Assembly (NCBI RefSeq): GCF_002831565.1
Contig: NZ_CP025096.1
Coordinates: 1,426,001-1,490,000, forward strand
DNA from: Spirosoma pollinicola
Lineage (GTDB): Bacteria; Bacteroidota; Bacteroidia; Cytophagales; Spirosomataceae
Direction of reading: 5' to 3'
Length of the DNA stretch: 64,000 bases
Below the pieces are notes generated by a model. That model was given only the letters and a program-made list of their open reading frames with translations. It made no database searches and was not told the origin of the DNA. The position numbers and the translations under genes were made by a program. Below are positions 15,433 to 38,317 of the stretch, piece by piece (the first letter of the stretch is position 1; each line of letters opens with the position of its first letter).

Positions 15433-15468
15433 TTAACAATTGTTATCGTCGGCCGACGGATGAAGGGC

Positions 15469-15476: not shown

Positions 15477-15500
15477 CCCCCAAAAAACCGGACGACGACG

Positions 15501-16961
15501 ATGAATCACACGACCGTATTAATTATTGGAGCGGGGCCCGTTGGCCTCACCCTGGCTTGTGAACTGGCCCGGCGCAGGATTCCGTTTCGGATCGTCGAGC
15601 GCTTAGCCGAACCCTCACGGGGCTCCCGGGCCAAAGCCTTGCAGCCCCGCAGCCTGGAAATATTAAACGATCTGGGCATCGCCGAAGCCCTGATGCCCCT
15701 GGGCTATACCGACCTGCCCTATCGCAAGTTCAACGGCAACGAGTTGATCGGGGAAACCCCTCGTCGGAGTTTTCCCCGTCCTGATACGCGGTATCCCAAC
15801 CTGCTGCTATTGCCCCAGTACCAAGTCGAACAAGCGTTGCGGGCTAAACTGGGTGAATTAGGCGGCCAGCTGGAGTGGGCCACCGAACTGGTCGACCTGA
15901 CGCAAACCGAGCAGGGCATCAGCTGCCGCCTGGACCATCCAAACTGGACAGAAGCGCTCACCTGCACTTACCTGGTTGCCTGCGACGGGGGTAAAAGCCC
16001 CACCCGTAAAAAGCTGGGCATTCATTTCGTGGGCGAAACGCATCAAACCGAGCAGCTGTGGGTGGGCGACGTAGAAGTGGAAGGGCTCAAACCCGATGCC
16101 TGGTATAATTGGCTGAGCCCCCAACTGGGTCTTGCGTTTGCTTTATTTCCCTTTAAAGAGTCCAGAAACTGGCAGTTGCAGGCTGTTATGCTCCCCGATG
16201 CGGAAGGCAACATCCCGGTGCCCACCCTGGAGGGCTTCAACCAGCTCTTTGTCGAGCGGACGCACATGCCAGGCGTAACCTTTACCAGCAGTAGCTGGCA
16301 GTCCATCTACCGGGTCAACATTCGCCGAGCCGAGCGTTACCGGGTTGGCAACGCCTTTTTGGCCGGTGACGCGTGCCATGTTCATGCCATCGCGGGCGGC
16401 CTGGGCATGAATACCGGCATACAGGATGCCTATAATCTGGGCTGGAAGCTGGCCGCCGTCATTAATGGGCAAGCCTCTGACACGTTACTGGATACCTACG
16501 GCGAAGAGCGCATACCGATTGCGGACGAACTGCTGAAAACCACGGCCGAGCGTCAGCGAGGGATGATGAAGGCGGCCACGGCCGGTAAAGGGGCTTTTGA
16601 CACCCTGGCCGCTCAGGATGGCACGCAACTGGATCTGAATTACCGCAACAGCTCATTGACCCGACAAGGAGAGACAATAAGTCGCACGGTACAGCCGGGT
16701 GACCGGTCCCCCGACGTTCAGTTAGCCGATGGAAGTTGGCTATCCCAACAGCTAAGCGGTACCCGCTGGAAAGTCGTGCAACTGGGCCAGGCCCAACCCG
16801 AAGTACCTGCCCAGTTGACGGTTATCAACACGACCGATCAAGCCTTGCTCAGGGCGTATGGGTTGACGGAGGGGCTAGTCCTGATTCGCCCCGACGGCTA
16901 TATCGCCCTGATCACAGCAGACGTGCGGGCGGTCAAGCAGTATTTTGATCGGTTTGGATGA
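15501..16961 (+). CDS. FAD-dependent aromatic-type monooxygenase
   Basis: The ATG at 15501 gives MNHTTVLIIGAGPVGLTLA, so the dinucleotide-binding GxGxxG motif is at residues 10-15. A mid-protein DG motif (YLVACDGGKSPTRKKLG) and the second FAD motif FLAGDACHVHAIAGGLGMN (Asp290) complete the class A flavin monooxygenase pattern (PheA/TfdB/MhpA type). The last ~100 residues are a thioredoxin-like domain typical of this group. At 486 residues it is slightly shorter than usual. It probably uses NAD(P)H and O2 to hydroxylate an aromatic or polyketide-like substrate; many Bacteroidota relatives are linked to antibiotic inactivation, but the substrate cannot be read from sequence. Confidence 0.9.
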   Translation: MNHTTVLIIGAGPVGLTLACELARRRIPFRIVERLAEPSRGSRAKALQPRSLEILNDLGIAEALMPLGYTDLPYRKFNGNELIGETPRRSFPRPDTRYPNLLLLPQYQVEQALRAKLGELGGQLEWATELVDLTQTEQGISCRLDHPNWTEALTCTYLVACDGGKSPTRKKLGIHFVGETHQTEQLWVGDVEVEGLKPDAWYNWLSPQLGLAFALFPFKESRNWQLQAVMLPDAEGNIPVPTLEGFNQLFVERTHMPGVTFTSSSWQSIYRVNIRRAERYRVGNAFLAGDACHVHAIAGGLGMNTGIQDAYNLGWKLAAVINGQASDTLLDTYGEERIPIADELLKTTAERQRGMMKAATAGKGAFDTLAAQDGTQLDLNYRNSSLTRQGETISRTVQPGDRSPDVQLADGSWLSQQLSGTRWKVVQLGQAQPEVPAQLTVINTTDQALLRAYGLTEGLVLIRPDGYIALITADVRAVKQYFDRFG

Positions 16962-18787: not shown

Positions 18788-19240
18788 ATGGAGGTTGACA
18801 AGCGAGGCCACCGAAAGCATCCGTTTCCGCTTTTGGTGGTTGAAAATAATAAAGATCATCAGTTAATTATTGGCTACTGCCTACGCGCCAACATCCCACA
18901 AGCAGAACCCATCTTTGCCACTACGGCAAAAGAGGCAAAGGCCTTTCTACAGCTTTCGTTTGCTCAGCGAAAAACCTTTCCTCAATTAATGCTTCTGGAT
19001 CCCTTCTTACCAAATTTAACGAAAGGCTTTGGTTTATTAACCGAGCTACGAACGGCCTATCCCCTGCTGCCCATTGTCATCTTAAGCCACCAGCAGGACC
19101 AACAGCTCGTTAATGAATCCTATCAGCGAGGGGCGCATTCGGTGATCATAAAGTCCACTGGGCTGGCTAGTTGGGAACAGCAGTTTCAACGCTTAAAAGA
19201 CTATTGGCTGGACGTGGTATCGTTGCCTAAGAAGTTTTAA
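18788..19240 (+). CDS. stand-alone response-regulator receiver protein
   Basis: The product has 150 residues and only a receiver domain. The phospho-acceptor is Asp71 (LMLLDPFLP), the switch residue is Ser100 (VILSHQ), and Lys122 (IIKST) is the conserved lysine. The acidic pocket is degenerate (VVENNKD, residues 18-24: one Glu and two Asn where Asp/Glu pairs are usual), so Mg binding may be weak. There is no output domain, so it would signal by protein contact, as CheY-like proteins do. No histidine kinase gene is adjacent. Confidence 0.8.
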   Translation: MEVDKRGHRKHPFPLLVVENNKDHQLIIGYCLRANIPQAEPIFATTAKEAKAFLQLSFAQRKTFPQLMLLDPFLPNLTKGFGLLTELRTAYPLLPIVILSHQQDQQLVNESYQRGAHSVIIKSTGLASWEQQFQRLKDYWLDVVSLPKKF

Positions 19241-20868: not shown

Positions 20869-21261
20869 ATGAGCCAATCAACAACTACGGCCCTATCAAC
20901 GAGTAAGCCTACCGATAATATCGGTAAAGCCAGCCTGTGGCGTTCACCCGAAGCGGAATTAATGTTTTTACAGGCAACGGGCAATTATAGCTGGCTGTAC
21001 TGGAAGAACGGGAAAAAGGTGCTTCTGGCCCGTACCTTGACTTATTATCAGGCTCAACTATCTAATGCCTGGTTTATCCGGCTGCATCGCAATTGTATTG
21101 TTAACCTACTGTTCGTCGAGCGGCTCGAAACGTTAGAGGCCACTAAAGGTGGGCTGGTTTACCTGCGCTCGGGCGACGTTTTGCCGGTCTCCCGGCGACG
21201 TTTGAGTCAAGTCAAGCGGGTGGTATCACGCTATCAGACTTTGGGTAACGGTAGGGCATAA
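20869..21261 (+). CDS. stand-alone LytTR-type DNA-binding protein
   Basis: This 130-residue protein is a LytTR domain with a short N-terminal tail. Diagnostic stretches are LMFLQATGNYSWLYWKNGKK, TLTYYQAQLSNAWFIRLHRN and NCIVNLLFVERLE, ending VLPVSRRRLSQVKRVV. LytTR domains bind direct repeats about 21 bp apart in promoters. There is no receiver domain, so control must come from partner proteins or expression level. It is the gene directly upstream of the giant NRPS-PKS gene in the same orientation, so it is a candidate regulator of that gene; the 519-bp gap argues for separate promoters. Confidence 0.87.
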   Translation: MSQSTTTALSTSKPTDNIGKASLWRSPEAELMFLQATGNYSWLYWKNGKKVLLARTLTYYQAQLSNAWFIRLHRNCIVNLLFVERLETLEATKGGLVYLRSGDVLPVSRRRLSQVKRVVSRYQTLGNGRA

Positions 21262-21780
21262 GTACCCTTAGGTTAGGGTTTTGGCTAAGTAGCCTCAGGG
21301 AGTCAACCCGTCCAAACTTCCTGAGGAAAGAGGTAAAAGCGTCTTCTACCGGGCCTTATAGTTAAGCACGATCCAATTAAGGGTAGCAAGTCCTTAGCAT
21401 ATATATCCACTTAATAGATTGATTAACTCATCAATAGAGAAAGTTCGTGTTTAGAGTTCAAGACTTACTTCGAAAATTTATTAAATGGCAATAAAGTGCT
21501 AGTAATGAAACATTTAAGTATTTATTGATTTATTAAACGTTTGGGATTTACACCCTTCCTAATCTGTTGGTTAACTGTAGGCTTTGAAAAGCGGTATAAG
21601 TAAATTAATTTCACACATAGCTCTCTATTATCATTATTTAGTTAAAATAGTAATTCTCATCAAAGAATATAAAGTCACAGTGGTGTGCCTCATTCCGATG
21701 CCATCATGCATAGGATATAGTTCAATTGATAACGGGCAACATTTGTAGAATATAATTTTAAAATAAGCGCTAAACACTCG
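21262..21780. other. long AT-rich leader region upstream of the NRPS-PKS gene
   Basis: No gene is seen. The DNA from ~21400 is markedly AT-rich compared with the genes on the left. Near the start codon, TATAATTTTA (about 21750-21760) resembles a -7 box and a TTG lies upstream, but the match to TAnnTTTG is imperfect. Length and composition suggest a regulated promoter or horizontally acquired DNA. Confidence 0.4.
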
Positions 21781-24700
21781 ATGGTTACAACTTTCCACAC
21801 AGAGAATAAAACAGTAGTCGATCTAATCGCTGAGCAAGTTCGTAACACGCCGGACAATGTTGCTGTAGTTTTTGAAGACCAGCAGCTTACTTATCGAGAG
21901 TTAGATGCCAAATCAAATCAGTTAGCCAATTATTTAAAGAAACATGGCGTAGAAGCGGAGGTACTTGTCCCCATTTGTATCAATCGCTCACTGAAGATGA
22001 TCATTGGAATAGTAGGAATATTAAAAGCAGGTGGGGCTTACGTACCTATTGACCCGGAGTATCCTAAAGATCGGATAGAATACTTATTGTCAGATATTGG
22101 AGCCAATATTTTACTTACGGATAGTTACTCTGCTAAATTATTAACCGAGCGTCGAGAAGATTTCGAGCTTATTGATATAGATAAAAATTGGGCAATTATA
22201 TCGCAGGAATCGGAAGTATTTCCTAAGATTTCTTTAATGCCCAGTAACTTAGCCTACGTAATCTATACCTCTGGTTCTACAGGATTACCGAAAGGGGTCA
22301 TGATTGAACATCAATCAGTAGTCAATGAAATCAGCAGCTATTCAAAAATATTTGGGTTCAACAGCACAGACAAGCAACTGGTATTAGCTAACTACACGTT
22401 TGACGCTTCGGTTGAACAAATCTTTGTTCCGCTTATAAGTGGGGCGTGCGTCGTATTAATTTCCAAGGATGATCAACTGGACCCTGACAAGCTAGATAGA
22501 ATAATCGAAGAAGTAGGAATTACCCACTTCCAGACTACTCCATCCTTTTTGAGAGGAATAAAACCTCGCTTATATGCTACCTTAAAGCGAGTTTGTTCAG
22601 GAGGGGAGACGTGTTCAACTGATCTAGCTGAGCAGTGGAGCTCATATGTTAACTTTTTTAACAAATACGGTCCAACCGAAGCCACGGTAAACGTGAGCTA
22701 CCATCTATACGATCGGCGTAAACAATATGAGGGACAACTGCCCATCGGCAAACCTTTACCAAATACCCAGTTATACATTCTGGATGCATCTGACAATCCA
22801 GTTGCAGTAGGCTTACCGGGCGAACTGCACATTGGTGGTATACAAGTAGCCAGAGGGTATTTAAATAAATCCGAATTAACGTCAGCAAAATTCATAGTAA
22901 ATCCATTTGGTGAAAGAGGCTCACGTCTGTACAAGACAGGTGACCTAGCGAGGTGGTTGCCAGACGGAAATATAGAGTACCTGGGCAGAACAGACAATCA
23001 GGTAAAAATTAGAGGATATCGCGTTGAATTAGGTGAAATTGAAACCATACTTAGTCAGCATCTATCGGTTCGTCAGTCTGTGGTAGTAGCCAAGGACGAT
23101 GGAATTGGCGGTAAGCGATTGGTTGCTTACGTGGTGCCTGAAGCGGAGTTTACTACGGTAGCCATTACTCAATATTTGAAGAGTAAGTTGCCCGATCACA
23201 TGATTCCGTCTTCTATAGTACAGTTACTCGCTCTGCCGTTAACACTCCACGGCAAAATAGACCGGGAATCTCTGCTGAATGCATCGTCGGAACGACCCGA
23301 GTTAGCTGTACCTTACAAAGCGCCTAAAACAACAACGGAGAAGCAAATTTGCATGCTTTGGACTTCCTTACTGCAACTTGATAGAGTGGGGATAAATGAT
23401 AATTTTTTTGAATTAGGCGGGAATTCTTTACTGGCTATAAAAACTGTATCGTCCCTGAAAGAGGTGCATAACTACCGATTGCCAATTGCTAGTTTATATC
23501 AGTCTCCCACCGTCGAAGGTATTGCTCGGTTCTTGGAAGGTAGAAACGAAAACAATCTTCCGTTAGCTACCCAGAAGCACAAAACTAGTGCTTCTGTTCA
23601 TGAAATCGCGGTGATTGGTATGGCCGGACGCTTTCCGGGTGCTAACACGATTGATGAGCTTTGGGATGTGTTAAAAGACGGCAAAGAAACAATTCGGTTC
23701 TTTTCTGATCAGGAACTGGATTCAAGTATATCTCAGCCTGTAAAAGATGATGCAAATTATGTAAAAGCTCGTGGTGTAATCGATAAAGCCGATGAGTTCG
23801 ATGCTTTTTTCTTTGGTATCAACCCGAAAATGGCTGAGTTAATGGACCCACAGCAACGTATATTCTTAGAGGTCGCCTGGGAAGCCTTGGAAGATGCGGG
23901 TTACACGTCCGAAAAATACAACGGATCAGTTGGTGTTTTCGCCGGCTGCCGCTTTAATTCCTATTACCAGAATAACGTAGCATCCCATCCGGAGTTGATC
24001 GAAAAAGTCGGCCTCTTACCGGTAATGACCTACAATGATAAAGATTACATTTCCTCCCGCACAGCGTATACGTTGAATTTAAAAGGCCCGGCGGTAACTG
24101 TGCAGTCGGCCTGTTCTACGTCTCTTCTGGCCATTGCTCAGGCCGTGGAAAGCATTCGGGCAGGCCAGTGTACGATGGCGCTCGCCGGGGGAGCTATTAT
24201 CACAGCACCCGTCAATAGTGGCCATCTGTATCAGGAAGGGGCTATGCTGAATAATGATGGCCATTGCCGGGCGTTTGATGCGGATGCAAAGGGAACCGTA
24301 TTCAGCGATGGAGCCGGGGCAGTGTTACTTAAGAGTAGAAAGCAGGCGGAAGAGGACGGCGATTTTATCTACGCAATCATCAAGGGAGTAGGTGTCAGCA
24401 ATGACGGTGGAAATAAAGCAAGTTTTACGGCCCCCAGTTCGGAAGGACAGGCTGAGGCTATAAAAATGGCGATAGCAGATGCTGATGTATCACCTTCTTC
24501 TATTTCTTACGTGGAAGCCCATGGTACTGCCACCCCATTAGGAGACCCGATCGAAATAGAAGGATTGAAAAAAGCCTTTGGATTTCAGGAGAAAAAACAG
24601 TTTTGTGCGGTAGGTTCCATTAAAAGTAATATGGGCCACTTAGTCACCGCTGCGGGGGTGGCCGGGTTCATAAAAACTGTCATGAGCTTACGTCATAAAC

Positions 24701-27700
24701 AAATTCCGCCCTCCTTATTTTACAAAAATCCAAATCCGAACATCGACTTTGCGAATAGTCCTTTTTACGTTAACACAGCCCTGACTACTTGGGATTCAGC
24801 CACCATTCGACGAGCAGGGGTAAGTTCGTTCGGCGTTGGGGGTACGAATGTTCACGTTGTGCTAGAGGAATGCCAGCAGGAAAGTGAAGTGGTAACGACC
24901 GATCAACCAGTGACCGGTCGCCCGGTACAGCTTGTCACCTGGTCGGCTAAGTCGATACCAAGCCGTGACGCCTATGCCACCCGGTTAGCCAACCACCTCC
25001 AGCAAAACAGTTATCTGGACGTAGCCGATGTGGCCTTCACCTTGCAAACAACCCGGGCTCACTTCAATCAGCGTCAATTTGTACTGGCGGCCACGGGGGA
25101 TGAGCTATCCGAAAAATTACTGGTCAGTAAAGTTTCTCTTACGCAGTTAAAAACAGTTACGGAACTACCCAGTGAAGTTGTCTTTCTATTTCCCGGCCAG
25201 GGTTCGCAGTATCTGAACATGGGCCGTGAACTATACGATAACGAGCCAGTCTACCGGCAAGCCATCGACGAGTGTGCGGACTTACTCCACCCGTATTTAG
25301 ACGTAGACATCCGGCAAATTATCTATCCTGAAGACGCGAACTGGGGGGCTGATGAACGCTTAAAAAATACGCGCTTCACGCAACCAGCCTTATTCGTTAC
25401 CGAATATGCGTTGGCCAGATTATGGATGAACTGGGGGATTGAACCATCTGCGTTTTGCGGGCACAGCATCGGTGAGTTTGTAGCCGCTCATTTAGCCGGC
25501 GTGTTCACGCTGGCTGATGCGTTAAAGCTGATCGCGATTCGTGGTCAGTTGGTGAGTGAACTTCCCCGTGGTAGTATGCTTTCAGTACGATTGGAAGCTG
25601 ATAAAATCGGCGCGCTCATGCCCGAGCCGTTGTCGATTGCCGCCATAAATAGTCATAAATTATGCGTAGTGGCCGGTCATGACGAAGACATTGCTGCCTT
25701 CGCAACTGTCTTGGATGAACAGGAAATTCCCAATCGAGTCTTGTTGACGAGTCATGCCTTTCATTCGGCCATGATGAACCCAATCGTTAGTGATTTTGAG
25801 CAGGTCGTCCGGAAGGTCCGCTTAAACCGTCCCCAGAAACCAATCGTATCATCCGTCAGCGGCATCTGGCTGACGGATGAACAGGCTATCGATCCGACTT
25901 ATTGGGCCAAGCACCTGCGGCTAACCGTCAATTTTGCCGACGCGCTTGACTTTATTTTCGCCCTGAACAAACCCCTTTTACTGGAAGTGGGACCGGGCAA
26001 TGCCGCGACAACCTTTGCCCATCAGCAGGCAGGCTCCCAACAGGCAATCATACTAACCAGCTTAGACAAAAAGGGTGGGCAAACTGATCACGAATCAATA
26101 TTAAATGCGTTAGGCCAAACGTGGCTAAACGGGTTAGAACCAAATTGGAAGGCTTTCTACGCCGATCAGCGTCGAGTAAAGGTAAGTTTGCCAACCTACG
26201 CCTTTGATAGATCGCGCTATTGGGTCGATCCGGCCCCGGTGGCTAAGCTGGAAGCACCCAGTGGGTACGTACACGTACCAGCGCATCAGTTCAGGCTGGA
26301 TACGGCCGTTACGGAAGACAGTCCACACAACGATAACATGCGAAAAATTAACATTCTCAATCGGTTAAAAGACATATTAGAAGACGCATCTGGTGTTGAT
26401 CTGGAAGGGGTAAGGCCCGAAGCCAGCTTCCTCGAGATCGGACTTGATTCGCTTTCAATGACTCAAGTTGCTTTAACGCTCAAAAAAGAACTTGGCATTG
26501 CCATCACATTCCGGCAGTTAAATGAAGAATACGCTACTCTGAATGCGCTCGTTGATTATCTCGATCAGACCTTGCCCGCCGAGCCTCACCAGCCTAAACC
26601 AATCGCTCAGCTAACGGCTCAGCCGATCGCTATGCCGACTACTCCCGTACCGGTATACGTCAGCAACGGAGCCGCACCGATTCAGAGTCAGACCATGCTG
26701 GACCTGATGGGCCATCAACTGCAAAGCCTGTCACAGCAGGTCGTCGTAATGCAAAACCAGATCGTCCTAATGCAAAACGGTGGTCTCACGTCTGCGATCG
26801 TAACGGCACCTCTGACGCCACCGCCCGTTTTAAATGTTAATAAACCCATATCCTCAGGGCAGGCCGCATTAAACACCGAAGAAGAGGCTGAGATCAAGAA
26901 ACCGTTTGGTGCGGGAGCCCGCATTGAGCGGCAAGCGACCGAACTTACCCCGAAACAGCAAGAATTTTTAGCGCAGCTTACCCAACGTTACACCTCCAAA
27001 ACCGCGGGTAGCAAAGCTTATACGCAGGAGCACCGACCCTACATGGCTGATCCACGAGCCGTTACGGGCTTCCGGCCGCTGACCAAAGAGATTGTTTATC
27101 CGATCGTTGTTGACCGGTCGAAAGGGAGTCGATTGTGGGACATTGATGGCAACGAATACATTGATATTCTGAGCGGGTTCGGCTCTAATATGCTTGGGTA
27201 TCAGCCCCAAATCATCATTGATGCCCTGGTGCAACAGGCGACTAACGGGTATGAAATTGGGCCGCAGCACGTTCTGGCTGGGGAAGTTTGTAAACTCCTC
27301 TGCGAGTTTACGGGTTTCGACCGGGCTGCCCTTTGCAGCACGGGTTCGGAAGCAGTATTGGGCGCGATGCGGATTGCACGGACCGTGACTAACCGGTCCC
27401 TAATTGTGGCCTTCACGGGGTCGTACCACGGTATCGTTGACGAGGTCATTGTCCGGGGCAGCAAAAAATTAAAATCGTTTCCGGCCGCACCAGGAATTAT
27501 GCCCGAAGCGGTGCAGAACATGTTGATTCTGGACTATGGCACCGACGAAAGCCTGCGCATCATTCGCGAACGGGCGGGCGAACTGGCGGCCGTATTGGTA
27601 GAGCCAGTCCAGAGCCGTCGGCCCGAATTCCGGCCAGTTGAATTTATGAAGCAACTCCGGACCATTACGGCGGAATCAGGTACAACTCTGATTTTTGACG

Positions 27701-30700
27701 AAATGATTACGGGCTTTCGAATACATCCCGGTGGGGCGCAAGCTATGTTCGGCATCAAGGCGGATTTGGCTACCTACGGCAAGGTGATTGCGGCCGGCAT
27801 TCCTATTGGCGTCATCGCCGGCGACAAAAAATTCATGGATGCGCTCGACGGTGGTTCCTGGCAGTACGGCGACGATTCGATTCCAGAAGCGGGCGTCACA
27901 TATTTCGCGGGCACTTTCGTCCGACATCCGCTGGCGCTGGCCACGGCTAAGGCGTCGCTGACGTATATGAAGGAAAAAGGGCCAGCACTGCAGCAGGGAC
28001 TCAACGCCAAGGGAGAGCGGGTAGCGAATGCCCTGAATGCCGAATTTGAACGGCTTGGGTTGCCAATGTACGTGGCGCAATTCGGTTCGGTCTGGAAAAT
28101 CAAGTACAAAGAAGAAATCCCATACAGCGAACTACTCTTTACGCTGATGCGTGAGAAGGGCGTCCACGTTTGGGACGGCTTCGCCTGTTACATCACCGAA
28201 GCGCACACCGACGCCGAACTGGACCGCGTGATCAGCCTGTTTATTGAAAGTACCCACCAGATGATGGCAGCTGGTTTCTTTAAACCCTCTTCAGCCCTCA
28301 ACCCTGGTACTGGGCCATCGGCAGATGCGGCCCGTGACGAACTGGTCATCGACTCACCGCCCATGTCCGGCGCGAAGCTGGGCCGGGACCCGGATGGGAA
28401 TCCAGGGTGGTTTATGCCCACCCCAGACTTGTCGGGACGGTTCCAGCGGGTGGATAACGGCGACGCTATTCGGAGTGAAACGTACTTAACCGTCGTCGAT
28501 TACAACCCGTTTGCCGGTCTCGAAATCAGTCACCTGGCCCCCATAACTGAACCGCAGTTAGAAATATGGATGGCCTGCCAATTAGGGGGCAATGACGCAA
28601 ACCTATCTTACAACGAATCCAATTCAATCCATTTCCGGGGACCGCTTAGTCGCTCGGCAATGGAGCGGGCGGTGCATTCCCTGTCCCAGCGGCACGAAGC
28701 GCTGCGGTCAGTTTTCAGTGCAAATGGGGAGCATATCTATTTCTTAGCCCAGCCGATTGGCGGCCTGCTTTATCAGGACTTCTCCGACGAAACCAATCCT
28801 GAACAGTTGGTCCAGGGTTACGTCGATCGGGAAATGCAGCATGTATTCGATTTAGAAAACGGCCCCCTGTTCCGGGCCAGCCTGCTCAGGCTGTCGGAAG
28901 ATGATCATTACCTTGTGCTGATGGGTCATCATATTATCACCGACGGTTGGTCGACACACGTCATTTTGCAGGATTTGGGTAAATTCTACTCTGCCTATTA
29001 CCAAGGCAGTTCGGCTGAACTGACCCCGGCCCCGTCGTACGCTCAACACGCGATCGAACAAGCTCAGTTCGTGCAGAGCGAAGCCTACGAGCCAGTTGAA
29101 AAGTTCTGGATCAGCCAGTACGCTGGTAACGTACCTATCCTTAACCTGCCGGTGGACAGGCCCCGCCCGGCAACGCGAACCTACCAGGGGCATCGAATCG
29201 ACTACGCAGTCGACCCGGAACTGGTGGCGGCCATCAAGCAGATGGGTGTTGGGGCCGGCACCAGTTTCGTAACGACGCTGATGGCGGCTTTTGAAGTATT
29301 TCTGCATCGGCTGACTGGCCAGCAGGATTTAGTGCTGGGCTTACCGGCCGCCGGGCAGTCGTTTACGGGAAAAACCCGCATGGTGGGTCACTTCGTTAAC
29401 ATGCTGCCTCTGCGGAGCCACGTAAAACCCGATGAGCGTTTTGTGGATTACCTGAAGCAACGTAAAACGGCGATGTTCGATGCATACGAACATCAGCAGA
29501 TCACCTTCGGTAGTTTGCTGAAGAAACTGAACATAACCCGTGACCCGTCGAGAGTGCCCTTAGTACCGGTGATCTTCAATATCGACATGGGTAAGGCAGT
29601 TGGCGTAAACTACGCTGGACTTACCTACCAAATCACCAGTAATCCGCGCAAGTACGAAAACTTCGAGCTGTTCCTGAACGTTACTGATGCCGAATCGGTA
29701 CTGACATTGGAGTGGTCTTATAACACGCAGCTATTCAAGGCGTCTACCATTGACCGCCTGATGCGTGAATTTGAGCAACTGCTCAGGGCATTAGTTGTCG
29801 ATCCGTCTGTCCGCATCGGCGCGGTGCGGGTCTTATACGATCCCCAACGACTGGCGGAACTGGCGCAGTGGAACCAGACCGCTGCCGATTATCCCCGCGA
29901 GGTGGCGTTGCCCCAACTGATTGCTCAAACCGCAACGCTGTATCCGGCTAAAACGGCTGTCACGTGTAATGGGCAACAACTGAGCTACCAGGCTTTGGAT
30001 GAAGGGGCGAATCAGCTTGCCCACTACCTCGTGCAGCGAGGCATCCGGGTTGGCGACTTAATTGGTGTCGCCTTGGATAGGTCGCCCGACATGCTAATGA
30101 CGTTGCTGGCTATTATGAAAGCCGGTGCGGCTTACATTCCCCTTGACCCCGCGTATCCTCAGGACCGTATCCAGTTCATGCTGGCCGATTCGGAGGCTAA
30201 ATTGCTTATCACGTCCGAAAAGCACAGCAGCCGGTTAGCCAGCGCAACGGCGCAGGTATTGCTTGAGAATGGGCTGGCCGAGTCGGCTCAGTGTCCGAAA
30301 ACAAAACCCGACGTTTCGGTTTCGGGTGATGATCTGGCTTACGTACTTTACACGTCCGGTTCGACCGGTAAACCCAAGGGTGTATTGATTACGCACCGCA
30401 ACATTGTCAATCTGTTATGGAGCATGTGTGCCGAGCCCGGCATTGGCCCGGACGACGTACTGCTGGCTGTCACCACGATTTCATTTGATATTGCGGGCTT
30501 AGAACTATTTCTGCCCCTAATTGCGGGGGCTACCGTGGCGTTGGCCGATGCTGAAACGGCCAAGGATGGGCGGGCTTTGGTCGAAATCATCCGGGAGCAG
30601 CCCATTACGTTGATGCAGGCAACGCCGGCCACCTATAAAATGATGCTGGACGCGGACTGGCAGCCGCCGGCCACCCCCGGTGGGTCGGCGTTAAACATTC

Positions 30701-33669
30701 TGTGCTGCGGAGAACCGATGTCGAAGGATTTGGCCCAAAAGCTGATTCCTCGCTGTCGCACCCTCTGGAACATGTACGGCCCAACGGAAACGACCATCTA
30801 CTCAACGGGTAAACAGATTTTAGCCAGTGATCCAATTATCACCATTGGCCGTCCAATCCACAATACTCAGGTTTACGTGCTGGACCCCTCGCTCAGGCCG
30901 GTTGCCGAAGGTATCGAAGGCGAAATTTACCTCGCCGGTGACGGCGTTGCTCAAGGCTACCTTAACCGGCCGGAGTTGACCGTCCAGCGGTTTATCAAAA
31001 ACCCGTTCGGCGAGTCAGGAACGGGAAAAATGTATCGCACAGGCGATCTGGGTAAGTTCTTGGCAAATGGCGAGATCCTGTGCTTAGGCCGGATTGACAA
31101 CCAGGTTAAGCTGCGGGGCTACCGGATTGAACTCGGCGAAATCGAGAATACACTGAATACATTCAATGGCGTGAAGGAAGCGGTGGTCGTGGCGCGGGAA
31201 GACCATCCGGGCGACCAGCAATTAGTAGCGTACGTTGTGCCAGAGTCGATCGTGCATAGCGACGAAGTGCCTAGTTGGCACGACCAGTGGGATCGAATTT
31301 ATCGCACGGGTGAAGGGATAACAGCGCAGGTTAGCGGCCGGGACACCTTCAACGTTGAAGTTAAGGAATGGGAAGGGCAGGCGCTGAAACGCATTCGGGC
31401 ACTGAATCCAAAACGTATTATGGAAGTAGGTTGCGGAGTTGGGCCACTGCTTTTTGCACTGGCTCCCGACGTCGACCAGTACATTGGTACCGACTATGCT
31501 GAGTCGGCCATTAATACCGTCCGGCAGAAAATGGCCGTTCAGCCAGAACGCTGGCAGCATGTGACCGTTGCTACAGCTCCGGCGAGTGATTTTTCCTTGG
31601 TGAAGGAACCGTTAGACATGGTTCTGATGCACAGTGTGGCCCAGTACTTTCCGGATGTGGATTACCTGTTGCGGGTCATTGAGGAAGCCACTACTGTAGT
31701 GGCCAAAGGCGGCTGTATTTTCATCGGCGACATGCAGACGAAAAGCACCCTGAAAATGCTTCACATAGCGGATCAGATTACGCGATCAGCACCGGACACG
31801 ACCCTTCGAAAATTCAAGCAGGTGATCGACCGGCGGATTTTCCTCGAGGACGAGATGATGGCCGATACGGCCTTCTTTTACCGGCTTCCTGAACTGATAC
31901 CAGCGATTAAAGGTGTCGACGTTCAACTCCGTGAAGGGAAATATAGTAACGAAGCGACCAAATACCACTACGATGTTTGGCTTTACATTGGCGAATCGCC
32001 CCAGATTGTCAATGTGGACCGGCCCATTCTGTGGACCCAGGATTATGAAATAAGTGTTCTAGAGCGGGAACTACGGGCAAATCTTCACCAAGTGACGGAA
32101 TTGAAAGGAGTGGCTAACCAGCGTACTGCGTTGGACTACGCCCAGTTTCAGGCGGTAGAGACTCTAAATGAGAACTTGTCGCTGACCGATATGAAGCAAC
32201 AAATCCAGGTCGTTGCCGAAGGCATTGATCCGGACGTTTTCCGAAAAGTGGGCGAAACGCTCGGCTTCAAAACGTACGTGCGGTGGGCTAACGACGGAGC
32301 CGACCAGCTCTTCGACGTCGTTTTTATTCCCAGCCATCTTAAAAACGTTATTCCCGCCCCGCCCTCATTCTCCAAACTAGACTGTGGATCCGCAACGGAT
32401 TACGTCAGGAATCCATTCAAAGCTGATCAGGTTACTTCTCCAGAGCAAATTAAAGAGTGGAAACGACAAGCAAAGACATTTTTGCCAGACTACATGGTGC
32501 CCGCTCAGTTCGTTGTCCTGGCGAAACTGCCCCTAACGCCGAATGGTAAAATCGATCGGAAGGCACTGCCCGCTCCTGATTTAGGAAAATCGGTACGAGA
32601 AGACGAGTACGTTGGCCCCCGTAACGACTCGGAAAAGCTGGTAATGGCGGTTTGGACCGACCTTTTAAAATTAGAGAAAATAAGCGTATTCGATAACTTC
32701 TTTGAATTGGGTGGGCACTCGCTGATTGCCCTTCATATCATGGTCCGTTTAGAGAAGGAAACTGGTAAACGATTACCATTAGCGGCTTTGCTTGAACACC
32801 CGACCATAGAGAAGTTAGCTTTGCTACTTCAAGTGAATGCGGATTCTGTGAATTGGGACTCACTCGTTCCAATACGGCCTAAAGGCAATAAAATTCCTCT
32901 TTATATAGTACATGGGGCGGGTTTGAATGTATTATTATTCAATGCATTAACGGTTCATCTAGATCCTGAACAGCCTATTTTTGGTTTGCAAGCAAAAGGG
33001 TTAAACGGTTTGGATGAACCATTAACCAGCATTGATGATATTGCCGCCCATTACATAGACGCTATTACAAGACAAAATCCCAATGGACCTTATGCCCTGG
33101 CAGGTTACTCATCTGGCGGAATAATAGCGTATGAGATGAGTAGACAACTGCTCGAAAGGGGCAAAGAAGTAAAGTTGCTGGCTCTATTTGATACACATGT
33201 CGATCAGTCTAATTATTTTGATCCCTGGCTGTTTAAGCAATGGAATAATTTGGTGTATGGAATAAAAAAATATTTATACACTTTTGTTTTGTTGAAGAAA
33301 GATTTCCGAGGAACAATTAGTTACAAAAAAGAGTCAGTAAAGCGAAGAGTAACTAGTTTTCAAAATAAGCTAAAGCACAGAGAGGACTATTTTAAAGTGC
33401 TTTACGGCAATAATTATAGAGTTTATCAAGCTAATCATGTAGCCGCCCGTATGTACCGTTTCTCTCCCCAAGAGATAACTATTGACTTATTCCGAGCCAA
33501 ACAGCGGATGTATTACTGGAAAGACTTCGAGTTTCTTGGTTGGAAACCCTTAGCCTTGAAAGGAATTAACATTCATGAAGTACCGGGCGACCATGCTAAT
33601 TTATTTAGTCCGCCGAACGACAAGGAAATTGCACGTGTTCTCCAGAAAGTTTTGAATGAACGCCTGTGA
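21781..33669 (+). CDS. hybrid NRPS-PKS megasynthase (A-T-KS-AT-ACP-AMT-C-A/MT-T-TE)
   Basis: A single 3962-residue assembly line. Loading: A1 (~10-500; YTSGSTGLPKG near 165) and T1 (Ser549 in FELGGNSLL), with no C domain before it. PKS module: KS (~606-1035; Cys778 in QSACSTS, EAHGTAT, NMGHL), AT (~1134-1440; Ser1229 in GHSIGE; HAFH at 1325-1328 points to malonyl-CoA), ACP (Ser1557 in GLDSLS), no KR/DH/ER. A PLP class-III aminotransferase (~1740-2165; DEMITGFR, Lys2001) would convert the beta-keto group to a beta-amine, as in mycosubtilin and microcystin synthases. Then C (~2245-2690; HHIITDG at 2383-2389), A2 (~2710-3600) holding a SAM methyltransferase insert (~3160-3540; EVGCGVGP), T2 (Ser3647) and TE (Ser3777 in GYSSGG; PGDHANLF). 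A2 pocket residues read D-I-L-Q-L-C-M-I-Y, nearest the Gly code; A1 reads D-A-E-Q-C-G-K-V-N, not assigned. The product is unknown. Confidence 0.95.
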   Translation: MVTTFHTENKTVVDLIAEQVRNTPDNVAVVFEDQQLTYRELDAKSNQLANYLKKHGVEAEVLVPICINRSLKMIIGIVGILKAGGAYVPIDPEYPKDRIEYLLSDIGANILLTDSYSAKLLTERREDFELIDIDKNWAIISQESEVFPKISLMPSNLAYVIYTSGSTGLPKGVMIEHQSVVNEISSYSKIFGFNSTDKQLVLANYTFDASVEQIFVPLISGACVVLISKDDQLDPDKLDRIIEEVGITHFQTTPSFLRGIKPRLYATLKRVCSGGETCSTDLAEQWSSYVNFFNKYGPTEATVNVSYHLYDRRKQYEGQLPIGKPLPNTQLYILDASDNPVAVGLPGELHIGGIQVARGYLNKSELTSAKFIVNPFGERGSRLYKTGDLARWLPDGNIEYLGRTDNQVKIRGYRVELGEIETILSQHLSVRQSVVVAKDDGIGGKRLVAYVVPEAEFTTVAITQYLKSKLPDHMIPSSIVQLLALPLTLHGKIDRESLLNASSERPELAVPYKAPKTTTEKQICMLWTSLLQLDRVGINDNFFELGGNSLLAIKTVSSLKEVHNYRLPIASLYQSPTVEGIARFLEGRNENNLPLATQKHKTSASVHEIAVIGMAGRFPGANTIDELWDVLKDGKETIRFFSDQELDSSISQPVKDDANYVKARGVIDKADEFDAFFFGINPKMAELMDPQQRIFLEVAWEALEDAGYTSEKYNGSVGVFAGCRFNSYYQNNVASHPELIEKVGLLPVMTYNDKDYISSRTAYTLNLKGPAVTVQSACSTSLLAIAQAVESIRAGQCTMALAGGAIITAPVNSGHLYQEGAMLNNDGHCRAFDADAKGTVFSDGAGAVLLKSRKQAEEDGDFIYAIIKGVGVSNDGGNKASFTAPSSEGQAEAIKMAIADADVSPSSISYVEAHGTATPLGDPIEIEGLKKAFGFQEKKQFCAVGSIKSNMGHLVTAAGVAGFIKTVMSLRHKQIPPSLFYKNPNPNIDFANSPFYVNTALTTWDSATIRRAGVSSFGVGGTNVHVVLEECQQESEVVTTDQPVTGRPVQLVTWSAKSIPSRDAYATRLANHLQQNSYLDVADVAFTLQTTRAHFNQRQFVLAATGDELSEKLLVSKVSLTQLKTVTELPSEVVFLFPGQGSQYLNMGRELYDNEPVYRQAIDECADLLHPYLDVDIRQIIYPEDANWGADERLKNTRFTQPALFVTEYALARLWMNWGIEPSAFCGHSIGEFVAAHLAGVFTLADALKLIAIRGQLVSELPRGSMLSVRLEADKIGALMPEPLSIAAINSHKLCVVAGHDEDIAAFATVLDEQEIPNRVLLTSHAFHSAMMNPIVSDFEQVVRKVRLNRPQKPIVSSVSGIWLTDEQAIDPTYWAKHLRLTVNFADALDFIFALNKPLLLEVGPGNAATTFAHQQAGSQQAIILTSLDKKGGQTDHESILNALGQTWLNGLEPNWKAFYADQRRVKVSLPTYAFDRSRYWVDPAPVAKLEAPSGYVHVPAHQFRLDTAVTEDSPHNDNMRKINILNRLKDILEDASGVDLEGVRPEASFLEIGLDSLSMTQVALTLKKELGIAITFRQLNEEYATLNALVDYLDQTLPAEPHQPKPIAQLTAQPIAMPTTPVPVYVSNGAAPIQSQTMLDLMGHQLQSLSQQVVVMQNQIVLMQNGGLTSAIVTAPLTPPPVLNVNKPISSGQAALNTEEEAEIKKPFGAGARIERQATELTPKQQEFLAQLTQRYTSKTAGSKAYTQEHRPYMADPRAVTGFRPLTKEIVYPIVVDRSKGSRLWDIDGNEYIDILSGFGSNMLGYQPQIIIDALVQQATNGYEIGPQHVLAGEVCKLLCEFTGFDRAALCSTGSEAVLGAMRIARTVTNRSLIVAFTGSYHGIVDEVIVRGSKKLKSFPAAPGIMPEAVQNMLILDYGTDESLRIIRERAGELAAVLVEPVQSRRPEFRPVEFMKQLRTITAESGTTLIFDEMITGFRIHPGGAQAMFGIKADLATYGKVIAAGIPIGVIAGDKKFMDALDGGSWQYGDDSIPEAGVTYFAGTFVRHPLALATAKASLTYMKEKGPALQQGLNAKGERVANALNAEFERLGLPMYVAQFGSVWKIKYKEEIPYSELLFTLMREKGVHVWDGFACYITEAHTDAELDRVISLFIESTHQMMAAGFFKPSSALNPGTGPSADAARDELVIDSPPMSGAKLGRDPDGNPGWFMPTPDLSGRFQRVDNGDAIRSETYLTVVDYNPFAGLEISHLAPITEPQLEIWMACQLGGNDANLSYNESNSIHFRGPLSRSAMERAVHSLSQRHEALRSVFSANGEHIYFLAQPIGGLLYQDFSDETNPEQLVQGYVDREMQHVFDLENGPLFRASLLRLSEDDHYLVLMGHHIITDGWSTHVILQDLGKFYSAYYQGSSAELTPAPSYAQHAIEQAQFVQSEAYEPVEKFWISQYAGNVPILNLPVDRPRPATRTYQGHRIDYAVDPELVAAIKQMGVGAGTSFVTTLMAAFEVFLHRLTGQQDLVLGLPAAGQSFTGKTRMVGHFVNMLPLRSHVKPDERFVDYLKQRKTAMFDAYEHQQITFGSLLKKLNITRDPSRVPLVPVIFNIDMGKAVGVNYAGLTYQITSNPRKYENFELFLNVTDAESVLTLEWSYNTQLFKASTIDRLMREFEQLLRALVVDPSVRIGAVRVLYDPQRLAELAQWNQTAADYPREVALPQLIAQTATLYPAKTAVTCNGQQLSYQALDEGANQLAHYLVQRGIRVGDLIGVALDRSPDMLMTLLAIMKAGAAYIPLDPAYPQDRIQFMLADSEAKLLITSEKHSSRLASATAQVLLENGLAESAQCPKTKPDVSVSGDDLAYVLYTSGSTGKPKGVLITHRNIVNLLWSMCAEPGIGPDDVLLAVTTISFDIAGLELFLPLIAGATVALADAETAKDGRALVEIIREQPITLMQATPATYKMMLDADWQPPATPGGSALNILCCGEPMSKDLAQKLIPRCRTLWNMYGPTETTIYSTGKQILASDPIITIGRPIHNTQVYVLDPSLRPVAEGIEGEIYLAGDGVAQGYLNRPELTVQRFIKNPFGESGTGKMYRTGDLGKFLANGEILCLGRIDNQVKLRGYRIELGEIENTLNTFNGVKEAVVVAREDHPGDQQLVAYVVPESIVHSDEVPSWHDQWDRIYRTGEGITAQVSGRDTFNVEVKEWEGQALKRIRALNPKRIMEVGCGVGPLLFALAPDVDQYIGTDYAESAINTVRQKMAVQPERWQHVTVATAPASDFSLVKEPLDMVLMHSVAQYFPDVDYLLRVIEEATTVVAKGGCIFIGDMQTKSTLKMLHIADQITRSAPDTTLRKFKQVIDRRIFLEDEMMADTAFFYRLPELIPAIKGVDVQLREGKYSNEATKYHYDVWLYIGESPQIVNVDRPILWTQDYEISVLERELRANLHQVTELKGVANQRTALDYAQFQAVETLNENLSLTDMKQQIQVVAEGIDPDVFRKVGETLGFKTYVRWANDGADQLFDVVFIPSHLKNVIPAPPSFSKLDCGSATDYVRNPFKADQVTSPEQIKEWKRQAKTFLPDYMVPAQFVVLAKLPLTPNGKIDRKALPAPDLGKSVREDEYVGPRNDSEKLVMAVWTDLLKLEKISVFDNFFELGGHSLIALHIMVRLEKETGKRLPLAALLEHPTIEKLALLLQVNADSVNWDSLVPIRPKGNKIPLYIVHGAGLNVLLFNALTVHLDPEQPIFGLQAKGLNGLDEPLTSIDDIAAHYIDAITRQNPNGPYALAGYSSGGIIAYEMSRQLLERGKEVKLLALFDTHVDQSNYFDPWLFKQWNNLVYGIKKYLYTFVLLKKDFRGTISYKKESVKRRVTSFQNKLKHREDYFKVLYGNNYRVYQANHVAARMYRFSPQEITIDLFRAKQRMYYWKDFEFLGWKPLALKGINIHEVPGDHANLFSPPNDKEIARVLQKVLNERL

Positions 33670-34068
33670 GTATTGTAGGACCAGGCTCAAGATCAATTGC
33701 TGATTTAGATGGCAAGCCTAAATTTGACCTTATGAACAACAAAGATAAATGCATATCAACTGCTTAAGGTCTTCCAGAATCTGGAAAATCCTCAAAAAGA
33801 AAAACATCGGCTATCATTACCAAATAACAAGGATTGTATGCTGATCAGGTTAATAATTGTAAGCAGCAGTTCGCTCCTAGAAGCCCAATACCTCTGAACC
33901 AAAATCTGAGGTAATAAAATAGGCTACAATTTATTATGTATAACATGCTAGGAAATTATGTTTGGCATTAATTGTCAATCTGTTGTAGCCTGACTTGAAC
34001 GTTGGCCAAATATGGCCAACTTACCGAAGATGATATGGTGTATTAATAATCCTTGACAACACGCCGGT
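33670..34068. other. intergenic region after the NRPS-PKS gene
   Basis: No gene is seen. The DNA is AT-rich. A 20-bp perfect palindrome (GTTGGCCA / TGGCCAAC around AATA) lies at 34001-34020, just before the transposase fragments. No clear intrinsic terminator was found directly after the stop codon. Confidence 0.4.
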
Positions 34069-34285: not shown

Positions 34286-34507
34286 ACGTCGTCAACCAAA
34301 AGTGAACAGATGCGGACCGTCAAACGCAGCGGTGATCTGCTCTCTGATCAGGGGGTCCCGGGCCTTGTGGGTATAAGTTTGACTGCGGCCGGGGCGCCGG
34401 GGCGATTCGGCCGTAGTCAAAGCATTGGTAGCGTTGGGTACCAGCACGGGTAGTGCCATACCGTTTGACGTGTTGAGTTTGCCCACAATGTTTGCAAGAA
34501 ACCGCTT
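34286..34507 (-). pseudogene. IS1-family transposase N-terminal remnant (frameshifted)
   Basis: One frame gives CKHCGQTQHVKRYGTTRAG and then TQRYQC, the zinc-finger start of an IS1-type InsA protein. Another frame then gives QTYTHKARDPLIREQITAA, the following segment. The two are joined by at least one frameshift, and the catalytic domain is absent. It lies directly beside the IS5-like fragment. Confidence 0.65.
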
Positions 34508-34517
34508 CGAAGACTAT

Positions 34518-34721
34518 TCACAAAGCTGCGTCATTCAACGCAGTTAGGCCACTACCCAGATTTGGAATGTCACAACTCTTTAAACGTTCACTCAATTCTT
34601 GATAAGTAAAAAGTGCATTTTCCGTGTTGCGACTTAATCGAGCAATCTTAGCTATCACTAATTTGGCCTGTTCTTTCCTATGCATCAATATGCTCGTGCC
34701 GTTCAGCGGTCGTCTCACCAC
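34518..34721 (-). pseudogene. serine recombinase N-terminal fragment
   Basis: The 67-residue frame contains KLVIAKIARLSRNTE, the AK(L)DRLSRN stretch of resolvase-type catalytic domains. The catalytic serine region and the DNA-binding part are missing. It is probably a remnant of a mobile element, but it is short and the match rests on one motif. Confidence 0.55.
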
Positions 34722-36579: not shown

Positions 36580-37863
36580 CTAATGAGCTTCCAAGATGTC
36601 TTCCCAACGGGTCGTATACCGGGGTGAGAGATACGAGGGTTTCATTGGCCATTCGGGGTTGTACATCTGGGAGGCCAGGCGAAGTTTATCCTGACCATAC
36701 CGCTTGTTTACCTTATCAATGACGGCCGAGAGTCTGATCAGCCGCTCATCCGGACCCTGGGTAAATACGCCCATCTGCCGGTAATCAGCAGGTACCAGAT
36801 CCGTCAGCATAATGCCCACCCGTTGGTAATTATAGCCAAACTTAAAGATTGCTTTCAAGCCCGATGCGGCATACTTAATGATCTCCAGGGTGGAACTGGT
36901 AGGGTGAGGAAGCCGAACGGTAACACTGTTGCTGTACTGCTTGGCAGGCAGAAAGTTGCCGGGCGTTCTCCGGTGCGGGTTGGTTCGAAGCCATACCGTG
37001 ACCGTTCCACAAAGTGATTCCTGTTTACGAAGCTTCTCGCAGATTCTTGACAGGTGGACCGTCAGGGCATCCGTGATAGTATCCAGATCGGGAATGACTT
37101 TACCAAAACCCGGCTCGGTACAGATCGCCTTGCGGGGTGGCGGATTTACGTCTAGTAATTTACAAGGCATCCCGCGCAGTTCATGAACCAGACGTAGTCC
37201 GTTGACGGTCATCACGCGTTGAATCCAGTCGTCGTTCACCTCTCTGAGTTGATAGGCCGTCCGGATACCCTGTTTTTTTAGCTTACTGACTGATTTGCCG
37301 CCAACGCCCCAGACATCCTCAATCGGAAAGCCCCACAGGGCCTCGTCTATTGCTTCCTGACTATCCAGCACACAAACCCCGTTTAATTCTGGCTTTATTT
37401 TGGCCAGGCGGTTGGCTACTTTGGCCAGCGTCTTGGTTGGACCAATACCCACTCCTACCGGAAGCCTGAGCCATTGCTTCATGGATTCCCGAATAGACAG
37501 GCCCAAGCCCTGATAGGAAGGGTAAATGCCGGTATACTCTTCGAGTTGCAGAAACGCTTCATCAATTGAATAGACCTCGACGTCAGGGGCAAATTGGGTA
37601 AGCAGGCTCATCAATCTTGAGGAAATGTCACCGTAAAGCTCATAATTTGATGAAAAAACGACTACGTCATGCTGGTCAACGAGTTCTCTGGTCTCGAAGA
37701 ACGGTTGCCCCATTTTTATGCCTAATGCCTTTGCCTGGGCACTTCTAGCAACCACATTTCCATCTCTATTGCTGAGCACAATAATAGGCTTCCCTTCCAG
37801 CTCAGGTCTGAAGATTTGGTGGCAACTGGCGTAAAACGAATTGGCATCAACGAGGGCGAGCAT
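36580..37863 (-). CDS. umuC: translesion DNA polymerase V subunit UmuC
   Basis: This 427-residue protein has the expected length. The Y-family polymerase motifs are present: metal-binding Asp6 in MLALVDANSFYASC, SNYELYGDISSR, and the catalytic YSIDEAF with Asp101/Glu102. VGVGIGPTKTLAKVAN and the helix-hairpin-helix WGVGGKSVSKLKKQGI follow, and the C-terminal UmuC domain is complete. It copies damaged DNA with low fidelity and needs cleaved UmuD for activity. It overlaps the upstream umuD gene by 17 bases, so the two are translationally coupled. In many bacteria this pair is SOS-induced; no clear LexA box was found here. Confidence 0.96.
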   Translation of the reverse strand: MLALVDANSFYASCHQIFRPELEGKPIIVLSNRDGNVVARSAQAKALGIKMGQPFFETRELVDQHDVVVFSSNYELYGDISSRLMSLLTQFAPDVEVYSIDEAFLQLEEYTGIYPSYQGLGLSIRESMKQWLRLPVGVGIGPTKTLAKVANRLAKIKPELNGVCVLDSQEAIDEALWGFPIEDVWGVGGKSVSKLKKQGIRTAYQLREVNDDWIQRVMTVNGLRLVHELRGMPCKLLDVNPPPRKAICTEPGFGKVIPDLDTITDALTVHLSRICEKLRKQESLCGTVTVWLRTNPHRRTPGNFLPAKQYSNSVTVRLPHPTSSTLEIIKYAASGLKAIFKFGYNYQRVGIMLTDLVPADYRQMGVFTQGPDERLIRLSAVIDKVNKRYGQDKLRLASQMYNPEWPMKPSYLSPRYTTRWEDILEAH

Positions 37864-38317
37864 ACCGGGGAGGTTTTGAGATGATATACGTCACTTCGCC
37901 CAGCACCGCCACCTGGTCACGATCCGGATGCAGATACATGGGAGCATACTTCTCGTTACTGGATTCCAGCATGATCATGGGGCTTTTGTCGATGTAACGC
38001 TTGACACACCAGCCCTCATTGACCCAGATAACAATCACCATGCCCGTTTCGATTGGCCGGGTGGAGTCGACCACCAGCATGGAGCCGGGGAAAATATAAT
38101 CACCTATCATACTCTCTCCGGATGCCTTTACGAAGTAGGTATTATCCGGATGTAGTACGCACAGATCCTGTAAATTTAAACGCTGGCGAATGAAATTATC
38201 CGCCGGGTTTGGAAAGCCTGCCTGCACAGCGATATCAAAAAAAGGTAAATCTTTGCGCCGGGTAGGGTCAGTTAAGAAGATGTTTTCGGGAGGTAAATAG
38301 TCAATGGTGTCAAGCAT
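37847..38317 (-). CDS. umuD: UmuD, self-cleaving polymerase V accessory protein (S24 peptidase)
   Basis: The 156-residue product is an S24 LexA/UmuD-type protein. The cleavage site is probably Ala33-Gly34 (AVQAGFPNP). The catalytic dyad is Ser69 (ASGESMIG) and Lys106 (GWCVKRY). The N-terminal arm lacks a LexA helix-turn-helix, which fits UmuD rather than a repressor. On RecA-driven self-cleavage it activates UmuC. It is the first gene of the umuDC operon. Upstream DNA (38318-38374) is AT-rich with TATATATA stretches, a possible promoter, but no motif is decisive. Confidence 0.94.
   Translation of the reverse strand: MLDTIDYLPPENIFLTDPTRRKDLPFFDIAVQAGFPNPADNFIRQRLNLQDLCVLHPDNTYFVKASGESMIGDYIFPGSMLVVDSTRPIETGMVIVIWVNEGWCVKRYIDKSPMIMLESSNEKYAPMYLHPDRDQVAVLGEVTYIISKPPRYARPR

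Follow-up and report, generated by a model that had tools for sequence, protein, structure and literature searches.

A single open reading frame (ORF) in a 64,000-nucleotide stretch of the Spirosoma pollinicola genome (the window, with positions counted from its first letter) encodes a 3,962-residue hybrid of non-ribosomal peptide synthetase (NRPS), polyketide synthase (PKS) and aminotransferase (AMT) domains. On balance the protein is probably an assembly line for a diamino acyl-N-methylglycine, which arose by one fusion of a two-gene system within Spirosoma and has since spread from one species to another as a single-gene cassette. It has a definite domain order with recognisable motifs and homologies, belongs to a single clade of fused proteins, and lies in a segment that is nearly identical in two otherwise divergent genomes. 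Rather than a unique system, the gene is a novel fusion within a large, apparently uncharacterised family. A first-pass annotation had described it as a single-gene hybrid and a candidate for an undescribed small molecule, an interpretation that is partly supported; new here are the likely recent one-gene transfer and the recurrent surface-polysaccharide setting of relatives in two phyla.

Domain order and predicted chemistry

Above curated cut-offs, Pfam matched two AMP-binding stretches, three PP-binding domains, the N- and C-terminal parts of a ketoacyl synthase, an acyltransferase, a class-III aminotransferase, a condensation domain, a methyltransferase and a thioesterase in this ORF. Together with the motif positions these matches confirm the order A-T-KS-AT-T-AMT-C-A(MT)-T-TE (A, adenylation; T, carrier; KS, ketosynthase; AT, acyltransferase; C, condensation; MT, methyltransferase; TE, thioesterase), in agreement with the single-gene order of the first-pass annotation, which wrote the second carrier as ACP. 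The motifs checked in each catalytic domain are present, contrary to the several inactive domains that the annotation had named as a possible objection. No KR, DH or ER was matched by Pfam in the PKS module. Among the NCBIfam matches listed (25 of 212), those over the cut-off were adenylation or ligase models only (TIGR01733, NF003417, TIGR01734 and TIGR01923), with no whole-pathway model. The features of the gene are the following.

21781..33669, + strand: single ORF with ATG start, hybrid NRPS-PKS-AMT megasynthase of 3,962 residues (ORF list, Pfam)
21820..23280, + strand: A1, starter adenylation domain, code DAEQCGKVN (NCBIfam TIGR01733 at residues 37-435, AMP-binding; edges approximate)
23323..23550, + strand: T1 carrier, GGNSL at residue 546 (PP-binding, motif; edges approximate)
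23602..25083, + strand: KS, ketosynthase, ACSTS 777, EAHGT 912, NMGH 950 (PF00109, PF02801, PF16197, motifs)
25180..26046, + strand: AT, acyltransferase, GHSIG 1227, HAFH 1325 (PF00698, motifs)
26362..26562, + strand: T2 carrier, GLDSL at residue 1554 (PF00550)
26905..28281, + strand: AMT, mycosubtilin-type aminotransferase dependent on pyridoxal phosphate (PLP), IFDEM 1971, TYGK 1998 (PF00202; 412 bits to the MycA AMT chain 6kfu)
28534..29838, + strand: C, condensation domain, HHIITDG 2383 (PF00668)
29926..31251, + strand: main part of the adenylation domain A2, with the putatively glycine-like code DILQLCMIY (edges approximate)
31354..32037, + strand: MT inserted in A2, EVGCGVG 3215 (106.6 bits to 5wmm, an NRPS chain and the closest solved match)
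32458..32580, + strand: C-terminal end of A2, LPDYMVP ... GKIDR (sequence, motif; edges approximate)
32638..32835, + strand: T3 carrier, GGHSL at residue 3644 (motif; edges approximate)
32896..33639, + strand: TE, thioesterase, GYSSGG 3775, GDHAN 3936 (PF00975, motifs)

Pocket codes were taken by motif alignment and follow the PheA residue numbering with its customary code meanings; the gap printed at the last position of DVQF-type A1 codes is an effect of this alignment. A1 is of the amino-acid type, as both TIGR01733 and the nearest solved chains, which are amino-acid A domains, indicate, and its pocket has an Asp that we take to be the amino-group contact of such domains. Since A1 matches amino-acid A domains and has this Asp, the starter would be an amino acid rather than a fatty acid, which bears out the annotation's view of how the PKS module is primed. 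Among the relatives listed, the code DAEQCGKVN is common to the five fused proteins (with I for V in P0005) and to five split relatives. The split relative at locus L115 of Spirosoma genome G017 combines it with the A2 code DILQLGLIW, presumably a glycine code, and with an MT. Of 93 A codes from non-starter positions, some of them duplicates or from later modules, 55 start with DILQ, and the fused proteins account for five of these 55; glycine is the putative A2 substrate, as it is in the antiSMASH prediction for Pedobacter heparinus (Nrp-Mal-Gly-Pk). In the AT, the motifs GHSIG and HAFH, which we take to be of the malonyl type under the usual specificity rule, point to malonyl as the probable extender unit.

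The class-III AMT stands directly after the PKS carrier and before the C domain. Its best solved relatives are AMT chains of the mycosubtilin synthase MycA (412 and 411 bits), the next match being glutamate-semialdehyde aminomutase at 169 bits, and the PLP Lys and Asp are present in its motifs TYGK 1998 and IFDEM 1971, so the mycosubtilin-type assignment made earlier holds. The MT (residues 3192-3419) sits inside A2 between RGYR 3112 and GKID 3589, that is after A8 and before A9/A10; the motif scan found the A10 motif GKID at residues 491 and 3589. The annotation had placed the MT within the second A domain, and it is inserted there as in an interrupted NRPS A domain, its best solved match 5wmm presumably being TioS, an adenylation domain interrupted by a backbone N-methylating methyltransferase. 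N-methylation of the residue loaded by A2 is the predicted outcome. For MycA, a passage of PMC3870968 gives glutamine as the amine donor of the AMT.

How would these domains work together? In the proposed scheme A1 would activate the starter amino acid and load it onto T1, and the KS-AT-T2 module would extend it by one malonate to a beta-keto, gamma-amino chain. As none of KR, DH and ER was matched in this module, the chain would reach the AMT with its beta-keto group, which the AMT would swap for an amine to give a beta,gamma-diamino acyl group. C and A2(MT) would then link this group by an amide to N-methylglycine, and the TE would free the finished chain. A phosphopantetheinyl transferase (PPTase) would be needed from elsewhere in the genome, where one is found at 4.77 Mb (L086) near a split copy of the family. 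Read from the domains, the predicted product would thus be an amino acid and a malonate unit, beta-aminated and amide-linked to N-methylglycine, each chemical step being deduced from sequence. If this chemistry is true, the gene offers a genetically simple, one-polypeptide route to vicinal (beta,gamma) diamino acids, which to our knowledge are rare building blocks.

Family, fusion and probable transfer between species

With the AMT region (residues 1600-2260) as query, the 7,994 candidates sharing most words were scored, and at least 7,172 proteins matched at E <= 0.001. The best 120, which lean to close relatives and include Larkinella, Hymenobacter and Spirosoma, comprise four fused proteins (3,889-3,968 residues), 115 unfused ones of 2,180-2,310 residues and one of 2,688 residues that also has a C domain. 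The 115 carry the A-T-KS-AT-T-AMT Pfam families, some records being short of one minor family. At the genome level the best 80 of 593 relatives were kept, a sample with the same lean, and their domain labels were taken from cluster representatives: the core cluster occurs in 79 loci, the 80th being the fused S. utsteinense gene, a C-A-(MT)-T-TE partner cluster in 68 and a PPTase-cluster neighbour in 52. The usual Bacteroidota arrangement is a core of about 2,200 residues (A-T-KS-AT-T-AMT) with an adjacent C-A-(MT)-T-TE partner, whereas the window has one ORF. The family is present at E <= 1e-60 in 30 of 36 Spirosoma genomes, and in five of 118 in a draw of genomes over the order. A fused frame of about 3,970 codons without a stop is found in two of the 36 (G000, the genome of the window, and G034); in many others a single stop interrupts a frame of about 3,600 codons, with separate core and partner ORFs where inspected (e.g. 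L125, L126).

Among the relatives listed, the four further fused proteins have the same domain families, and in S. utsteinense the fused frame is seen directly in the genomic DNA (stretch L124), so that a fusion created by assembly error is unlikely. In a tree built on the KS-to-AMT region the five fused rows form one clade (100/100) within an 11-row clade that shares the A1 code; the long branches L067 and L030 fall outside the latter. As the five fused rows form a single clade, the likely origin of the gene is a single event in Spirosoma that joined the core and the C-A-MT-T-TE partner of the two-gene Bacteroidota system. Fused forms lacking an MT match occur elsewhere, in the Chitinophagaceae (L067, 3,437 residues) and in Aliiroseovarius (3,429 residues). 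Two Spirosoma genomes also have a second, longer type of AMT protein (G034:C20:9847-11544 and G017:C1:585021-586646), with frames of 4,234 and 4,247 codons and 43-44% identity over the AMT. The family locus L123 (G021:C13) looks broken, its AMT match being a 427-codon frame among ORFs of 839, 1,020 and 399 residues.

Two further features bear on the gene's probable movement.

21394..33766, no strand: segment with 96.7% nucleotide identity to S. utsteinense between unrelated flanks, likely the unit of a one-gene transfer
34332..34556, no strand: repeated element, in eight places in the genome including this one; a 76% copy, inverted, lies on the gene's other side in S. utsteinense

Compared with the 20-kb S. 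utsteinense stretch, the window aligns over 12,373 bp, beginning 387 bp ahead of the start codon and ending 97 bp past the stop, and the sole further match is a 226-bp element (76%, inverted) on the opposite flank. The upstream flank of the fused gene has no match longer than 141 bp in the S. utsteinense genome. Between the two copies dS is 0.070 and dN/dS 0.24, with lower ratios in single domains (KS 0.11, AT 0.13, AMT 0.12, MT 0.16), and judged by these ratios the fused gene is under purifying selection. An assembly artefact or chance ORF is ruled out by the four other fused relatives and the dN/dS of 0.24. As background served a syntenic 12-kb stretch, in which nine of ten ORFs could be compared; all nine have dS >= 1.27, two of them being saturated. 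Nucleotide identity is 69-82% in this stretch and 67-80% in others, for matches longer than 200 bp. Because a dS of 0.07 stands against a background of at least 1.27 and the flanks are unrelated, a recent horizontal transfer of the lone gene is the simplest reading and a likely one, which suggests that an assembly line encoded by a single 12-kb gene can travel as such. Multi-copy matches suggest insertion sequence debris at 33.8-35 kb, where the short downstream pieces gave no Pfam match to a transposase; Rfam found no match in 16000-40000.

Polysaccharide neighbourhoods and the fate of the product

The surroundings of relatives were compared by Pfam families. Around 17 Spirosoma family loci, 99 of 100 flanking proteins were scanned, one core-gene piece being dropped and another, which overlaps an AMT match (L123 10176-11375), being retained. 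Twenty fixed 12-kb stretches from nine genomes, Spirosoma only, served as control and yielded 130 scanned of 154 proteins (150-900 residues; L137 had no usable ORF), and 140 of 488 proteins were scanned at the other loci. The 99 flanking proteins include ten of family GT2, eight Wzx-type flippases, eight OEP, six GNVR and four GT1. GT2, Wzx, OEP and GNVR are absent from the 25 families listed for the 130 control proteins, the last of which has two members, so that each has at most two there; Glyco_trans_4_4 is found in four of 99 flanking and three of 130 control proteins. The other loci gave 18 GT2 and 12 PPTase among 140. With the control set at this upper bound of two, Fisher P is 0.005 for GT2 and 0.019 for Wzx, 0.0002 for GT2 at the other loci, and not significant for GNVR (0.07) and GT1 (0.22); these values are optimistic since loci of one genus are syntenic and the counts not independent. 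Among loci of at least 20 kb, 41 of 66 have at least one of seven glycan clusters and 25 have none.

A tblastn search of plasmids returned 52 records, from which 12 chosen regions were opened and ten proved annotated; records from Agrobacterium, Bacillus, Paenibacillus and Xenorhabdus stood outside the 12. Polysaccharide genes lie within 9 kb in seven of the ten annotated regions, all Alpha- and Betaproteobacteria: Aliiroseovarius, two Rhizobium that are laid out almost alike, Loktanella, Jannaschia, Rhodobacter (a single glycosyltransferase at the margin) and Variovorax paradoxus. They are absent from the other three, Variovorax RA8, S. linguale and Nostoc; the Nostoc region holds an AMP-binding protein and a P450. 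In S. utsteinense a Poly_export gene lies about 1.4 kb upstream of the fused copy, and glycosyltransferase genes lie upstream of the split copy at L115. Relatives in two phyla are thus often found within surface-polysaccharide loci. Genes of TIGR04325-family methyltransferases recur beside proteobacterial AMT-NRPS-PKS genes (L163, L167, L168, L171).

What would become of the assembled chain? The predicted chemistry behind the undescribed small molecule of the first-pass annotation is sound as a prediction, but relatives often lie in polysaccharide loci, which leaves room for more than a free small molecule; instead of being freely diffusible, the product may serve to decorate glycans. Two readings, a free product and a glycan substituent, are live. 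A molecule released or cyclised by the TE and acting as signal, chelator or antibiotic comes near to an even chance without reaching it: a terminal TE with its motifs is present and the window copy stands alone as a transferable gene, none of its scanned neighbours being a glycan gene, while the glycan loci of relatives speak against it, as does the fact that no export or resistance gene travels along, since the 12.4-kb segment holds little else. We regard it as possible, if rather doubtful, that the product is not free and that the family, including the window copy, makes acyl (R-group) substituents for cell-surface polysaccharides together with Wzx/Wzy-type loci elsewhere. The enrichment of GT2 and Wzx beside family loci, the seven plasmid regions and the export gene of S. 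utsteinense are in line with such a role, and so is a precedent in Flavobacterium psychrophilum, where, according to PMC6519341, a fatty-acid-like pathway on a dedicated acyl carrier protein, encoded in the O-antigen locus, is proposed for the dihydroxyhexanoyl R-group of the O-polysaccharide. Set against it are the 20 window ORFs scanned, which include no glycosyltransferase, no flippase and no gene for polysaccharide export, the dependence among syntenic loci of one genus, the non-significant GNVR and GT1, the Glyco_trans_4_4 counts, the plasmid regions and loci devoid of glycan genes, and the need for some route from a TE-released chain to a sugar. A broader version seems unlikely to us: a cross-phylum megasynthase class, encoded on one chain in Spirosoma and Aliiroseovarius but split in the Bacteroidota at large, that would build beta,gamma-diamino acyl-glycine or -sarcosine groups for surface polysaccharides, the fused form being a portable one-gene, serotype-changing cassette. 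Very improbable is a bypass of the AMT in which the gamma-amine closes on the thioester to a tetramic-acid-type product; such a closure is chemically plausible for a beta-keto, gamma-amino thioester, but the AMT has its motifs and, with dN/dS 0.12, is under strong purifying selection, and C, A and TE families are retained in the four other fused proteins.

Several points weigh against the preferred reading of a diamino acyl-N-methylglycine assembly line carried between species as one gene. The starter code DAEQCGKVN fits no specificity that we recall, the A2 code DILQLCMIY is two positions off the family's commonest, DILQLGMIW, and the 3,962-residue protein has no known activity or metabolite. 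Ring closure of the beta-keto, gamma-amino intermediate could forestall the AMT. The dN/dS ratio reaches 1.72 in the linker before the AMT, 0.58 in T1 and 0.46 in T2, and the dS background is one 12-kb syntenic stretch, matches in other stretches being patchy. Moreover, the shared segment is without a transporter, resistance or tailoring gene and no PPTase is found among the scanned window neighbours, for which reasons the locus is unusual for an autonomous metabolite. That relatives in two phyla recur next to genes for flippases, tyrosine autokinases and glycosyltransferases leads to the testable proposal that these assembly lines tailor surface glycans, a function of NRPS-PKS systems that has been little explored.

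In the window, the 20 ORFs scanned with Pfam leave aside 16 of the 37 ORFs of at least 150 residues, several of which overlap larger ones. Upstream of the gene are a response-regulator receiver ORF (18788-19240), a 393-residue ORF with no Pfam match and a LytTR DNA-binding ORF (20869-21261), and further away (10206-16961) a row of CsgG-like, carboxypeptidase-regulatory-domain, alpha/beta hydrolase and cyclic-nucleotide-binding proteins and an FAD monooxygenase. Downstream follow an ImpB/MucB/SamB-family polymerase and S24-peptidase pair resembling UmuC/UmuD (36580-38317) and a cellulose-related region (41220-57681) with a CBM3 protein, an integrase-core ORF, a Laminin_B ORF, an MFS transporter, an M20 peptidase, a large PA14/NPCBM secreted protein and a GH9 cellulase. 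Besides the fused copy, the genome holds two split copies of the family, at 8.02 and 4.78 Mb. In the second of these the core (about 4.78 Mb, L087 4322-11058, G000:C1) consists of two ORFs (699 and 1,546 residues) with a 4-base overlap in the KS region, and its Wzc/GNVR-like neighbour is likewise in two ORFs (568 and 153 residues); the broken frames reflect either decay or an assembly error. A hexapeptide-repeat transferase adjoins the PPTase (L086 11540-13221), its fold being common among sugar acyltransferases, and pectate-lyase-like secreted proteins recur near split copies (L116 1890-7560 by Pfam, L085 15677-18259 by similarity).

Comparison with known systems

An assigned product for the AMT-hybrid family was not found in the open-access literature, whose silence proves little. 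The words 'aminotransferase' and 'Spirosoma' do not occur in the main text of a survey of Bacteroidetes clusters (PMC9248904), passages on Spirosoma report T1PKS, NRPS and other clusters found by antiSMASH and nothing further (PMC10482864, PMC7272551), and PMC9100364 gives cluster tallies. The annotation recognised no characterised pathway with exactly this order; the order is not a one-off, its core recurring unfused in 115 of the 120 best relatives and the layout of that core having been tabulated in 2013. A unique architecture is ruled out by the listed relatives, by that layout, from Pedobacter heparinus, and by a single gene of Aliiroseovarius.

Table 2 of PMC3870968 gives Pedobacter heparinus C6XWU5 as A-CP-KS-AT-CP-PLP1, with Nrp-Mal-Gly-Pk predicted by antiSMASH, and the same paper lists two longer proteobacterial proteins with the same domain run (G2E5C9, F7QBN5). 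The core order of C6XWU5 is that of the window protein, whereas C, MT and TE are not on its chain. The split loci L115 (G017) and L006/L007 (Larkinella) are homologous over the whole length (63-66% for the core, 56-57% for the partner with the MT) and are two ORFs where the window has one. In Aliiroseovarius sp. M344 a plasmid encodes WP_260519409.1 (3,429 residues), a single gene that Pfam reads as A-T-KS-AT-T-AMT-C-A-T-TE; it differs in having no MT match, belongs to another phylum and lies between glycosyltransferase/CpsD genes and a PPTase. The inserted MT of the 5wmm NRPS chain is similar and likewise follows A8, whereas substrate and pathway differ. Finally, MycA-type hybrids of mycosubtilin, iturin and bacillomycin synthesis (6kfm, 6kfr, 6kfu; AMT characterised) have the same run of PKS module, carrier, class-III AMT and NRPS on one chain, and bacillomycin D BamA was also matched in the plasmid tblastn. 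In these hybrids an acyl-ligase loads a fatty acid as the first unit, whereas the window protein starts with an NRPS A domain in place of a fatty-acyl ligase and continues with an MT and a TE.

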